Below are positions 45,078-51,993 of a DNA stretch of 64,000 nt, piece after piece. Below the pieces are notes generated by a model. That model saw only the letters and a list, made by a program, of their open reading frames with translations, was not told the DNA's origin and did not search any database. Position 1 is the first letter of the stretch. Each line of letters opens with the position of its first letter. Source of the stretch: Microbacterium sp. MYb45 (GTDB taxonomy: Bacteria; Actinomycetota; Actinomycetes; Actinomycetales; Microbacteriaceae); assembly GCF_002979655.1 (NCBI RefSeq), contig NZ_PCPG01000013.1, positions 1 to 64,000 on the forward strand, read 5' to 3'. Made by a program: the position numbers and the translations under genes.

Positions 45078-47197
<2,120 letters not shown>

Positions 47198-47324
47198 ATC
47201 ATTCTCTCGCGAATCTCCCAGCTAAGCCACCCTTCCCTGCGGATTCTGAACAGATATACGGGATCCCGCCAGGCCGACGGGGAGCCCACGGCCCGCGGGA
47301 GCACGGCGGCACGAACTTTTTTCC

Positions 47325-47383
47325 GAAGTCGCGTAATGAACCCGAGGGGTCGCCGTCTCATCCCATAGAGACAGCCGTACGAA
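47325..47383 (+). repeat. Repeat core, copy 1 (promoter/operator candidate)
   Basis: This 59-base element is the same length as copy 2. Shared blocks are GAAGTCGCGTAATGAA and CCGTCTCATCCCATAGAGAC with GCCGTACGAA. It contains the imperfect palindrome GTCTC/GAGAC. It stands immediately 5-prime of three hairpins on the plus strand. An A/T-rich CATAGAG near its right end could be a -10 region; no good -35 is recognisable. Confidence 0.75.
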
Positions 47384-47523
47384 CTCCACCGGGGGGCGGA
47401 GTTCAGGTGCTGGTGTGAAGGACATGCACCGGTCGGGCGGGTCGGGATCCTCGGGGGAGGAGAGCCCGGCCCCCCAGCTCTGCACACGAGGAAGAGACCG
47501 CCGATCTGGGGACCGGCGGCCTC
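47381..47523 (+). ncRNA. Candidate structured small RNA, unit 1
   Basis: Three hairpins in order: (a) GAACTCC 47381-47387 with GGAGTTC 47398-47404, loop ACCGGGGGGC; (b) CCTC 47449-47452 with GAGG 47457-47460, loop GGGG, plus an outer GGG/CCC; (c) CCGCCG 47498-47503 with CGGCGG 47514-47519, loop ATCTGGGGAC, extended by GAG/CTC. All are kept in unit 2 with pair-preserving changes. No convincing protein frame spans both units with a start codon and ribosome site. Transcription is not proven. Confidence 0.5.
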
Positions 47524-47571
47524 CCGCGTGGATCGGTCCTCGGACCGGGGTGGCTTTCCGAAGATTTTCGA

Positions 47572-47630
47572 GAAGTCGCGTAATGAATCGGTGGGGATGC
47601 CGTCTCATCCCATAGAGACAGCCGTACGAA
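47572..47630 (+). repeat. Repeat core, copy 2 (promoter/operator candidate)
   Basis: Direct repeat of the 47325-47383 core, 247 bases downstream, same length and the same conserved blocks; the 12-base spacer between the blocks is diverged, which suggests the blocks are under constraint. Confidence 0.75.
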
Positions 47631-47744
47631 TTCCTCCGGGGGGCGGGATTCAGGCAGCGGTCGGTCGGGATCCTCGGGGGAGGAGAGCCCGGCCACCGGC
47701 TCTGAGAGGGGAACGGGGCCGTCGATCTGGGGACCGGCGGCCCC
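47628..47744 (+). ncRNA. Candidate structured small RNA, unit 2
   Basis: Hairpin (a) GAATTCC 47628-47634 with GGGATTC 47645-47651; compared with unit 1, a C-G pair has become U-A (47631/47648) and a U-A pair has become U-G. Hairpin (b) is identical to unit 1. Hairpin (c) is GGGGCCGTCG 47715-47724 with CGGCGGCCCC 47735-47744; an A-U pair of unit 1 is G-C here and one C-G is U-G. The wobble pairs work only for a plus-strand RNA. Unit 2 is 24 bases shorter between hairpins a and b. Confidence 0.5.
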
Positions 47745-47805
47745 CCACCCGAACCTGAACGACCGGAGAGCGCAGGGTTGCGCGTCGCGCGATGCTCTGC
47801 TGCCT

Positions 47806-48978
47806 CTAGGCGTGCAGCCGTGGTCCTGACCACACTCGTGCGACGCGCAGCTCGGCATCCAGCAGTACGGCATCTCCGAGCATCCCGACCCGGAGCCCGC
47901 CGAGTTCGGTGGAGCGGCCGATCGCCCGCGCCGGCGTCTCGGTGAGGGCCCGCACGGCTTCAGCGACGTCCACGCCGGCGGCCACCGTGCGTCGCAGCGC
48001 GACATCCTGAGTGAGGGTCGACCCGGCGATCGAACCGGTGTCGTCGGTTCGGGCGACGCCGTTCTCGACCGTGACGCTCACCGCTCCGAGGTCGTAGTGG
48101 CCGTCGGCGCTTCCGGCCGCGGCCATGGCGTCGGTGATGAGAGCCACTCGGCCCGGGGCGGAATCGAACACGAGCTTGATGACGTGCGGGTCGAGGTGCA
48201 CGTTGTCGGCGATCGCCTCCAGCACCACACGATGATCTGCGGCGGCCGCGAGTACCGGTCCGGGAGCGCGATGGTGGATGCCGGGCATGGCATTGAACGC
48301 GTGGGTGAGGATCGACGCGCCGGCCTCGAATGCGGCGACCGCCATCGCCGCGTCGGCATCGGTGTGTCCCACGGCTGCCGCGGATCCGGCGGCCACGATC
48401 TGCCGGATCGCGTCGAGTCCGCCCGGAAGCTCCGGCGCGATCGTCACCTGCCGGACCGTGCCGCGGCCCGCGTCGAGCAGACGCGCGACGTCGGCCGCAA
48501 CCGGGTGGCGCAGAAGCGCGGGCTCGTGCGCGCCGTGGTGGCCCGGGTCGAGGAAGGGTCCTTCGAGGTGCGAACCGAGGATGTCCGCGTCGGTCTCGGT
48601 CAGGTCGGCGATCGCGGCGACGTTGCGCGCGAGCGCGTCGATCGACGCCGTCACGAGCGACACGACCGCCCGGGTGGTGCCGTGCGCGCGATGCAGACCG
48701 CGCCCGGTGCGGATCGCCTCCACCCCGTCGTCGAACGATGCACCGGCACCGCCGTGTCCATGGATGTCGATGAACCCCGGGGTGAACAGGGCGCCGGGTC
48801 CGGCATCCGCCGCGGCGTCGACGACCTCATCGGCGGGCGACCAGTCGGCGCCGGTGCCGCGAGCCGTGACGGCGCCGTTCTCGATGCGGACCCAGCCGTC
48901 TTCGGTGATCTCGCCGCGATCGACGATCCTGGCCGAATGGACGACCAGTGAACCGGTCGCGGAGGAGTGGGTGCTCAA
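47806..48978 (-). CDS. nagA: N-acetylglucosamine-6-phosphate deacetylase
   Basis: Hydrolyses GlcNAc-6-phosphate to glucosamine-6-phosphate and acetate, the step before NagB. The 390-residue amidohydrolase has TPGFIDIHGHGG (metal H-x-H, about 65-76), the metal glutamate in SHLEGPFLDP (about 137), GHTDAD, THAFNAM and the catalytic aspartate in LITDAMAAAG (about 283). The start appears to be TTG overlapping the stop of the upstream GH20 gene (TTGA); no ATG fits the N-terminus. It is cotranscribed with that hexosaminidase. Confidence 0.94.
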   Translation of the reverse strand: MSTHSSATGSLVVHSARIVDRGEITEDGWVRIENGAVTARGTGADWSPADEVVDAAADAGPGALFTPGFIDIHGHGGAGASFDDGVEAIRTGRGLHRAHGTTRAVVSLVTASIDALARNVAAIADLTETDADILGSHLEGPFLDPGHHGAHEPALLRHPVAADVARLLDAGRGTVRQVTIAPELPGGLDAIRQIVAAGSAAAVGHTDADAAMAVAAFEAGASILTHAFNAMPGIHHRAPGPVLAAAADHRVVLEAIADNVHLDPHVIKLVFDSAPGRVALITDAMAAAGSADGHYDLGAVSVTVENGVARTDDTGSIAGSTLTQDVALRRTVAAGVDVAEAVRALTETPARAIGRSTELGGLRVGMLGDAVLLDAELRVARVWSGPRLHA

Positions 48979-50540: not shown

Positions 50541-50598
50541 TGTGGTGGGGTGGCCATGTCTCCGCGTTCGCCGCCTCGGGCATCCGCTATGCTCGTAA

Positions 50599-50673
50599 CC
50601 GTCGCGACTGGCGTCTGGGTGGACTACCACCGGGGAGCGACTGACCACGGAATTCGACCGCGCGCCTGGGCCG
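50599..50673 (+). promoter_or_regulatory. ZTP riboswitch (pfl motif) of glyA-folD
   Basis: The leader contains the conserved order of the pfl/ZTP aptamer: CGCGACTGGCG (50603-50613), a stem GGTGGACTACCACC, the GGGGAGCG block (50632-50639) and the 3-prime signature CGCGCCTGGGC (50661-50671). ZTP riboswitches sense ZTP/ZMP, a sign of low 10-formyl-tetrahydrofolate, and characteristically precede glyA and folD, exactly the genes here. TATGCT at 50589-50594 is a likely -10. The expression platform may involve the ribosome site AAAGGAG at 50703-50709. Confidence 0.85.
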
Positions 50674-50718
50674 ATAGGAACACCCCTTTCGAATCCGTCG
50701 TCAAAGGAGCATGTCACC

Positions 50719-51993
50719 ATGACCGACCGTTACTTCAACGCCCCGCTCGCCGAGGTCGACCCCGAGATCGCACAGGTCCTCGACCGTGAGCTGAAGCGTC
50801 AGCAGACCTTCCTCGAGATGATCGCCTCGGAGAACTTCGTTCCCGTCTCGATCCTGCAGTCGCAGGGTTCCGTGCTCACGAACAAGTACGCCGAGGGATA
50901 CCCCGGCCGCCGCTACTACGGTGGCTGCGAAGAGGTCGACGTCGCGGAGTCCCTCGCGATCGAGCGGGCGAAGAGCCTTTTCGGCGCCGAGTTCGCGAAC
51001 GTGCAGCCGCACTCCGGCGCGTCGGCGAACGCCGCGGTCCTGCACGCGATCGCCCGCCCCGGCGACACCCTGCTCGGTCTGTCGCTCGACCAGGGCGGCC
51101 ACCTCACGCACGGCATGAAGATCAACTTCTCCGGCCGGCTCTACGACATCGTCGCGTACGGTGTCGACCCCGAGACCTCGACCATCGACATGGCGGAGGT
51201 CCGCCGCCTCGCGATCGAGCACAAGCCCAAGGTCATCATCGCCGGCTGGTCGGCCTACCCGCGCACCATGGACTTCGCGGCTTTCCGCGAGATCGCCGAT
51301 GAGGTCGGCGCGCTGCTCTGGGTGGACATGGCGCACTTCGCCGGTCTGGTCGCCGCGGGTCTGCACCCGAACCCGGTTCCGCACGCCCACGTCGTCTCCT
51401 CGACCGTGCACAAGACCATCGGTGGCCCGCGCTCGGGCTTCATCCTCACGAACGACGCCGAGCTCGCCAAGAAGATCAACACCGCGGTCTTCCCGGGCCA
51501 GCAGGGCGGACCGTTGATGCACGTGATCGCCGCCAAGGCGACCGCGTTCAAGCTCGCCGGCACCCCGGAATTCAAGGAGCGCCAGGAGCGCGTGCTGCGC
51601 GGAGCGAAGCTCATCGCCGAGCGCCTTTCGCAGCAGGACGTGAAGGATGCCGGCATCGCGGTGCGCTCGGGCGGCACCGACGTGCACCTGGTGCTGGTCG
51701 ACCTGCGCGACGCCGAGATCGACGGCAAGCAGGCGGAAGACCTGCTGCACGACATCCACATCACCGTGAACCGCAACGCCGTTCCGAACGACCCGCGTCC
51801 GCCGATGGTGACCTCGGGTCTGCGCGTCGGCACGCCGGCGCTCGCGACCCGCGGCTTCGGTGACGCCGAGTTCACCGAGGTCGCCGACATCATCGCCCTC
51901 GCGCTGCTCCCGGGTGCGGATGTGGAGTCGCTGCGCGCCCGCGTCGACGCCCTGGCCGCCGCGTTCCCCCTCTACCCGGACCTGCAGCAGTGA
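50719..51993 (+). CDS. glyA: Serine hydroxymethyltransferase
   Basis: Interconverts serine and glycine with transfer of the C1 unit to tetrahydrofolate. The 424-residue protein is a standard Gly[20 protein letters not shown] (35-53), the PLP lysine K232 in [14 protein letters not shown], and [14 protein letters not shown] (201-214). A clear AAAGGAG site precedes the ATG. It is controlled by the ZTP riboswitch and overlaps folD by four bases. Confidence 0.98.

Follow-up and report, generated by a model that had tools for sequence, protein, structure and literature searches.

6C RNA (Rfam RF01066) is a widespread small RNA of actinobacteria, mycobacteria included, and its hallmark is a pair of hairpins with loops of about six C. 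Other bacterial RNAs serve as decoys. CsrB, CsrC, RsmY and RsmZ carry repeated hairpins with a conserved GGA tip, a motif that recurs in the leaders of their targets, and SroC is a sponge RNA that titrates a small RNA through base pairing. The mycobacterial RNA B11 we take to be 6C RNA. The C-loops of B11 from M. abscessus repress a leader with six G, with compensatory mutations (PMC10470900), and a C-rich loop of M. marinum B11 acts likewise (PMC12395582). The literature searched, with most subscription papers outside that scope, describes no antagonist of 6C RNA. ECF48, ECF52 and ECF53 fusions are thought to be tethered to the membrane through the anti-sigma portion that they contain (PMC8999054; PMC5826349).

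Here we analysed a window of 64,000 nucleotides from Microbacterium sp. MYb45, in which a gene for an ECF sigma/anti-sigma fusion lies next to two tandem RNA units (Table 1). Like 6C RNA, the units are multi-hairpin actinobacterial small RNAs with homopolymer loops as the putative functional end. They differ from it in that their loops are GGGG, so they lack the 6C hallmark, and in that they are predicted to be read from an ECF-type promoter. Because the loops are G rather than C, we regard the units as a candidate partner of 6C RNA and not as members of its family. They also resemble the CsrB-type decoys, with repeated hairpins, one tip motif and the same motif in the leaders of putative targets. 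However, the tips are GGGG here and GGA there, many genomes bearing the RNA lack CsrA, and the partner of the unit RNAs is probably an RNA, unlike the CsrA of the CsrB-type decoys. As with SroC-type sponges, they are proposed to titrate a small RNA to which they base-pair, accessible complementarity being found for the loops only. In contrast to such sponges, they are genes of their own behind ECF-type promoters, with repeated hairpin loops and a proposed kissing interaction instead of linear pairing.

The sigma fusion and the two tandem units

Sigma region 4 of the fusion protein falls just below the Pfam cut-off, and by eye the zinc finger is followed by hydrophobic (membrane) segments and then by an extension of DPV repeats. 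Tandem repeats of 18/27 bp at 45669-45825 (6.8 copies at 92%) encode this DPVDPV linker, and among the matches listed the open frame of the fusion ranges from about 430 to 1163 aa. In its ECF domain, zinc finger, hydrophobic segment and proline-containing extension the protein resembles ECF52 (SCO4117 of Streptomyces coelicolor). However, Pfam at E <= 0.001 gave the sigma regions and zf-HC2 alone, with no carbohydrate-binding domain (that of SCO4117 was called with SMART), and the promoter described below, CGCGTrATGA-N14-CrTCTC, differs from the putative motif published for SCO4117, CSGYN-17bp-SRHA. For these two reasons we did not file the fusion as ECF52. Among the best 80 of 143 sigma-protein loci, 75 were from Microbacterium, M. 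oxydans being the closest among them.

The gene-free stretch between the sigma gene and nagA measures about 680 bp, in line with the initial annotation of this DNA, and a repeat search recovered the two direct copies, offset by 247 bp, that it had described. The core copies (47312-47407 and 47559-47654) are 85% identical at this offset, the second hairpin copies (47440-47474 and 47663-47697) 97% identical at an offset of 223, and the third (47498-47525 and 47719-47746) 93% identical at 221. That no described RNA family fits the units agrees with Rfam, which at family cut-offs gave no match to either unit or across the region. Its sole match in the window was a ZMP/ZTP riboswitch (50594-50678, plus strand, 51.8 bits) immediately 5' of a glyA-like gene at 50719-51993. 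Between 47000 and 47900 we found no standard sigma-70 promoter; the single consensus match to an intrinsic terminator with a T-run in that interval lies at 47088, with none 3' of the units. T-run terminators were seen by eye 3' of the units in some relatives (L136, L163). Directly 3' of the last RNA unit, at 47757-47860, many relatives share a conserved GACCGGAGAGCGCAGAGCTGCGCGTCG-like element that adjoins the nagA stop and is perhaps a bidirectional terminator.

Table 1. Features of the sigma/RNA locus and the 6C-like RNA of the same genome
Feature	Coordinates	Strand	Evidence and details
ECF sigma factor fused to zinc-finger anti-sigma, 682 aa	45078..47126	-	Pfam Sigma70_r2 and zf-HC2 above cut-off; TIGR02937
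Sigma-gene promoter, predicted autoregulated	47163..47197	-	GAAGTCGCGTGATGA-N14-CATCTC; repeat search, exact pattern match; counterpart in 85/120 distinct sigma-upstream regions
RNA unit 1 promoter	47325..47359	+	GAAGTCGCGTAATGA-N14-CGTCTC
RNA unit 1	47364..47535	+	R2 model match, 154 bits, E 2.3e-28 (training-set member); alignment A1; inferred start near 47364-47366; four hairpins, last ending near 47523
Unit 1 hairpin a	47382..47403	+	GGGG loop 47391-47394; fold
Unit 1 hairpin b	47410..47432	+	Loop GAAGGA, GGGG there in many relatives; no counterpart in unit 2
Unit 1 hairpin c	47439..47472	+	Tip CUC-GGGG-GAG, loop 47453-47456; fold
Unit 1 hairpin d	47494..47523	+	Tip CUGGGGA, UGGG unpaired in fold
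RNA unit 2 promoter	47572..47606	+	Exact pattern match
RNA unit 2	47611..47756	+	R2 model match, 125 bits, E 1.7e-22 (training-set member); three GGGG hairpins, last ending near 47744
Unit 2 hairpin a	47629..47650	+	Loop 47638-47641; fold
Unit 2 hairpin c	47663..47694	+	Loop 47676-47679; fold
Unit 2 hairpin d	47715..47744	+	Tip CUGGGGA; fold
nagA	47806..48978	-	TIGR00221, 220.4 bits, just below cut-off 225.65; convergent to units
6C-like RNA (L456)	G000:C24:91685-91820		R1 model, 87.8 bits, E 2.5e-17

A promoter shared by the RNA units and the sigma gene

An inverted-repeat search showed that the first block of the core recurs on the minus strand at 47197-47183, 5' of the sigma-factor gene. 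The three copies have the consensus GAAGTCGCGTrATGA, 14 free bases and CrTCTC, after which the core continues into the RNA start. The 59-bp core of the initial annotation is therefore conserved between the copies as claimed, but is mostly promoter rather than RNA. Fixed spacing between two blocks is a mark of ECF promoters, and the RNA starts were placed by the position that transcription presumably takes relative to the promoter. Because the core is mostly promoter, each unit is predicted to be an RNA of 135-165 nt switched on by the adjoining ECF sigma factor.

In the genome of MYb45 the exact pattern TCGCGTrATGA-N14-CrTCTC occurs at three sites, all at the sigma/RNA locus; allowing up to three mismatches gives 32 sites, compared with 18 when the pattern is reversed. 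Across the genus the exact pattern was present in 86 of 247 genomes and its reversed control in 0. Its occurrence followed that of the sigma gene, with 84 of 178 sigma-positive genomes (protein match at E <= 1e-30, more distant homologues included) against 2 of 69 sigma-negative ones (G109 and G163; Fisher p 6e-13). Among 120 distinct sigma-upstream regions, a plus-strand promoter was found in 109, a minus-strand promoter in 85 and both in 81, with 0 of 120 in the reversed-sequence control. The spacer is 14 nt long in 108/109 plus-strand and 80/85 minus-strand promoters, and its sequence drifts. The plus form was absent from 245 genomes of other Microbacteriaceae genera, in which the reversed control matched once, and in a set of 249 Microbacteriaceae genomes it was present in three, all Microbacterium. 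Among the genomes searched, the promoter was thus found only in Microbacterium. From these sequences we infer an autoregulated ECF promoter pair, in which the sigma gene and its putative targets are preceded by the same two-block motif at constant spacing, and transcription of the units by the neighbouring sigma factor is very probable.

Structure, conservation and spread of the RNA units

The computed folds of hairpins a, c and d in both units, six in all, agree with the structures given in the initial annotation and place GGGG inside or across the loop. The pair changes on which it rested are present in the sequence: C-G at 47384/47401 against U-A at 47631/47648 in hairpin a, and A-U at 47495/47522 against G-C at 47716/47743 in the hairpin that it labelled c. 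Its count of three hairpins holds for unit 2, but unit 1 has a fourth, hairpin b. Two copies alone are weak evidence for structure, because the z-scores of single hairpins are modest (-0.55 to -2.66).

We therefore rely on a wider alignment of homologues. From 119 units chosen by promoter, 61 were kept for G-run motifs at the expected places, and 47 of these form alignment A1, 14 odd or very similar units having been left out by eye; since the motif filter preceded the alignment, the invariance of the Gs in A1 is partly by construction. RNAalifold predicted 42 pairs in A1, 24 of them with changes on both sides, which bears out the proposal of a functional RNA with covarying pairs, and several G-U pairs in the alignment fit the plus strand alone, as had been claimed for the wobbles. 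Pairing was retained in 94.8% of cells (shuffled mean 87.5%, sd 0.4), double changes occurred in 148 cells (41.9 when shuffled) and the covariation score was 0.304 (0.171 when shuffled; 0/500 shuffles as high). When the partners were slid, pairing fell to 44-60%, a control that is partly circular because the structure was derived from the same sequences. Related sequences without structure may also beat shuffles, but in our judgement the margin in double changes is too large for relatedness of that kind. This wider alignment settles the question of structure. It also contains a short, near-invariant stem in which the 5' GAG of the RNA pairs with a CUC 3' of hairpin c.

The tips were counted in 118 of the 119 promoter-chosen units, with the motif filter not applied and a tip scored when GGG lay within the loop and GGGG within the loop extended by two bases at either end. 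GGGG-loop hairpins averaged 2.72 per RNA, whereas the mean over 354 dinucleotide shuffles was 0.25, and they made up 67% of hairpins against 7.5%; only three units had none. Stems therefore drift while GGGG tips stay.

A covariance-model search had been suggested as a check, and model R2 detected the unit RNA in 84 of the 247 genomes of the genus, including 82 that are sigma-positive; its seed sequences match by construction, and it misses GGGG-hairpin units that are more diverged. The matches listed number roughly 100, of which about a dozen lie away from the sigma locus. A coding origin of the units was rejected: stops fall within 150 nt in 31, 49 and 69 of 117 units in the three frames, so that no frame is open in all units, although most are open in frame 1, and units differ in length by entire hairpins. 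Two genomes from other families gave weak DNA matches of 27-30 nt (E 4e-4 and 8e-4), which we attribute to chance. Taken as a whole, it is nearly certain that the units are a structured RNA under a promoter common to the neighbouring sigma gene.

6C RNA as a candidate partner

With a strict filter, RF01066 matched 9 of 149 genus genomes, two of them above the cut-off of 47 bits. Its best match in the MYb45 genome scored 28.3 bits at a place other than the locus in Table 1, which was not listed. Common to the nine matches are a block upstream and a second hairpin with T-rich sequence after it. Since RF01066 misses the copy in MYb45, we built a genus model, R1, from these nine, upstream block included, and it found a 6C-like RNA in 214 of 247 genus genomes. 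The MYb45 copy folds into two hairpins with C-rich loops, GAUUCCCCCAAUC and CAUUCCCCCCGUG, whose C runs are unpaired, and in the loops UUCCCCCAA and UUCCCCCCG the C runs are unpaired with probability 1.0. In both RNA units the same probability applies to all four Gs in each loop of hairpins a and c, and to three loop Gs in hairpin d. The suggestion that the G-rich loops could pair with C-rich targets thus fits, with the C-loops of 6C RNA as candidate partner; the contrast with 6C RNA drawn in the initial annotation is likely to be the key, because 6C RNA is the best candidate.

Isolated unit tips pair with 6C loops at -9 to -16 kcal/mol, compared with about -6 for an AAGGAGG control, although the tips of a and c also reach about -10 with the anti-SD tail, which counts against the specificity of this pairing. 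Whole-RNA duplex energies, which ignore folding, were not significant: 96 and 77 of 300 shuffles were as low for unit 1 with 6C RNA, and 45 and 16 of 300 for unit 2. Unit loops and 6C loops are both near-invariant, so covariation between them cannot be shown. Co-occurrence tests little, because 6C RNA is near-universal in the genus; at the strict filter, 6 of the 84 RNA-bearing genomes had no 6C match. On the basis of the accessible complementary 6C loops, the pairing energies of the tips and the repression by B11 through its C-loops, we propose that the units may be a sigma-controlled decoy of 6C RNA, a proposal on which we are evenly divided.

Distant promoters and CUGGGGA ribosome sites

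We inspected 20 of about 28 distant exact promoter sites among the matches listed, sorting them by eye. Two precede further GGGG-hairpin RNAs (L203 in G188 and L210 in G172). Five precede genes for exported proteins with GGGG in the leader or near the start codon (L200, L206, L212, L213 and L214), the leader of L200 reading GUCU-GGGG-AGACC-AUG. Seven lie in front of genes that are small or leaderless and lack the GGGG motif (L195, L198, L201, L202, L204, L207 and L209), and six have no clear assignment (L196, L197, L199, L205, L208 and L211). The apparently leaderless genes at L198, L202, L204 and L207, from several species, seemingly encode one family of small ALDLSIDEE-type proteins. In the MYb45 genome, a promoter with one to two mismatches (G000:C1:514630) precedes the gene for a Big_8-domain protein with the ribosome site ACUGGGGAACACC-GUG.

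The pattern CTGGGGA-N2-9-rTG occurs at 86 sites in this genome, modestly more often than its reversed control (50 sites). All 86 were inspected: 40 passed a coding filter and 10, with a spacing of 4-9, were judged real gene starts, likely intragenic or antisense sites having been dropped by eye and fifteen regions first chosen by eye. Eight of the 10 encode exported or surface proteins, compared with 1 of 10 for GAGGAGA sites (p 0.005), a baseline for which we took 30 of the 149 sites, the first in order and all from a single contig; ten passed, including two doubtful ones. With four paralogues collapsed, the count is 5 of 7 (p 0.03). Since selection was partly by eye, we treat this association with export as a lead and not as proof. 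The exported group comprises three tandem proteins with sub-threshold beta-propeller matches, a related LamG/PKD protein, and lipoprotein-like, LAVTG sortase-type, Big_8 and twin-arginine-like proteins, export of the last (L368) being called by eye; a cytidylyltransferase and one cytosolic protein are the non-exported members. The leaders of the three tandem genes (G000:C25, L260) resemble one another, and every one contains a CUGGGGA ribosome site. Of eight CUGGGGA leaders inspected in MYb45, only one has an ECF promoter, a point against the model below, and several have additional GGGG runs, some in hairpins. In isolation, CUGGGGA sites pair with 6C loops at about -10 to -15 kcal/mol, and with the anti-SD at -5.5 to -7.8 kcal/mol.

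Proposed mechanism and alternatives

The tandem promoters, the recurrence of the locus across many species of the genus, the ECF-type core and CUGGGGA in the leaders of exported proteins were missed by the initial annotation. With them, the following circuit can be drawn. The membrane-tethered ECF sigma gene, divergent from the units, would supply a sigma factor that transcribes its own gene and both RNAs, each from its own promoter. An extracytoplasmic signal would free the sigma domain, so that unit RNAs accumulate; their GGGG tips would engage the 6C-type small RNA through kissing contacts with its UUCCCCC loops and so titrate it, and messages with CUGGGGA ribosome sites, largely for exported and cell-surface proteins, would be freed from 6C RNA. 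Recognition of the promoters by the sigma factor, transcription of the units, binding to 6C RNA and the direction of the effect are all inferred steps of this model. In its fullest form, the tandem G-loop RNAs driven by the tethered ECF factor would be a dedicated 6C antagonist. By mimicking the CUGGGGA leaders found on messages for surface proteins, they would couple an external signal to a regulon of such proteins controlled at translation, and in some species the sigma factor would also transcribe such leaders directly. This fuller version is tentative, and we lean slightly against its holding in every part.

A protein could take the place of 6C RNA. The units might be decoys for an unknown protein that binds GGGG-tipped hairpins, in the manner of CsrB or RsmZ and CsrA, with CUGGGGA-hairpin leaders as its targets. 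Variable hairpin number combined with a single conserved tip is a CsrB-like design, some leaders have GGGG hairpins, and the MYb45 genome encodes CsrA (G000:C2:102483-102635). However, CsrA, the one candidate protein checked, is present in just 23 of 99 genus genomes and absent from several RNA-bearing genomes, G005, G014 and G034 among them, which rules out titration of CsrA as the general function. We consider a protein decoy unlikely, though a serious rival.

It is more doubtful still that the units act in trans independently of 6C RNA, as antisense to C-rich sites in messages or on the anti-SD tail of the ribosome. Their G-rich loops are accessible, and energies of -10.2 and -10.7 kcal/mol were computed for pairing between the 16S anti-SD tail and the tips of hairpins a and c, but an AAGGAGG site is computed to bind that tail far better (-15.6 kcal/mol) and the leaders with the common motif are G-rich rather than C-rich.

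An intra- or intermolecular G-quadruplex of the tips, sensing ions or stabilizing the RNA, is very improbable: one RNA may hold up to four GGGG runs in hairpin tips, but unit 2 is limited to three such tips, and a stable stem closes each of them. We give equally little credence to a terminator or antisense device for nagA, which is convergent to the units in 113 of 119 loci but has no match at the other six, and similar promoters and GGGG-hairpin units stand elsewhere in G188 and G172.

Discussion

This locus adds a structured RNA family without an Rfam match, together with a promoter motif for the fused sigma factor. If the 6C decoy model is true, a natural G-loop decoy gives 6C RNA a regulator, through a kissing-loop circuit. 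It would also explain why the exact promoter of the tethered ECF factor drives, in its own genome, only the sigma gene itself and non-coding RNA. An outside signal could then retune the proteins of the cell surface through titration of 6C RNA.
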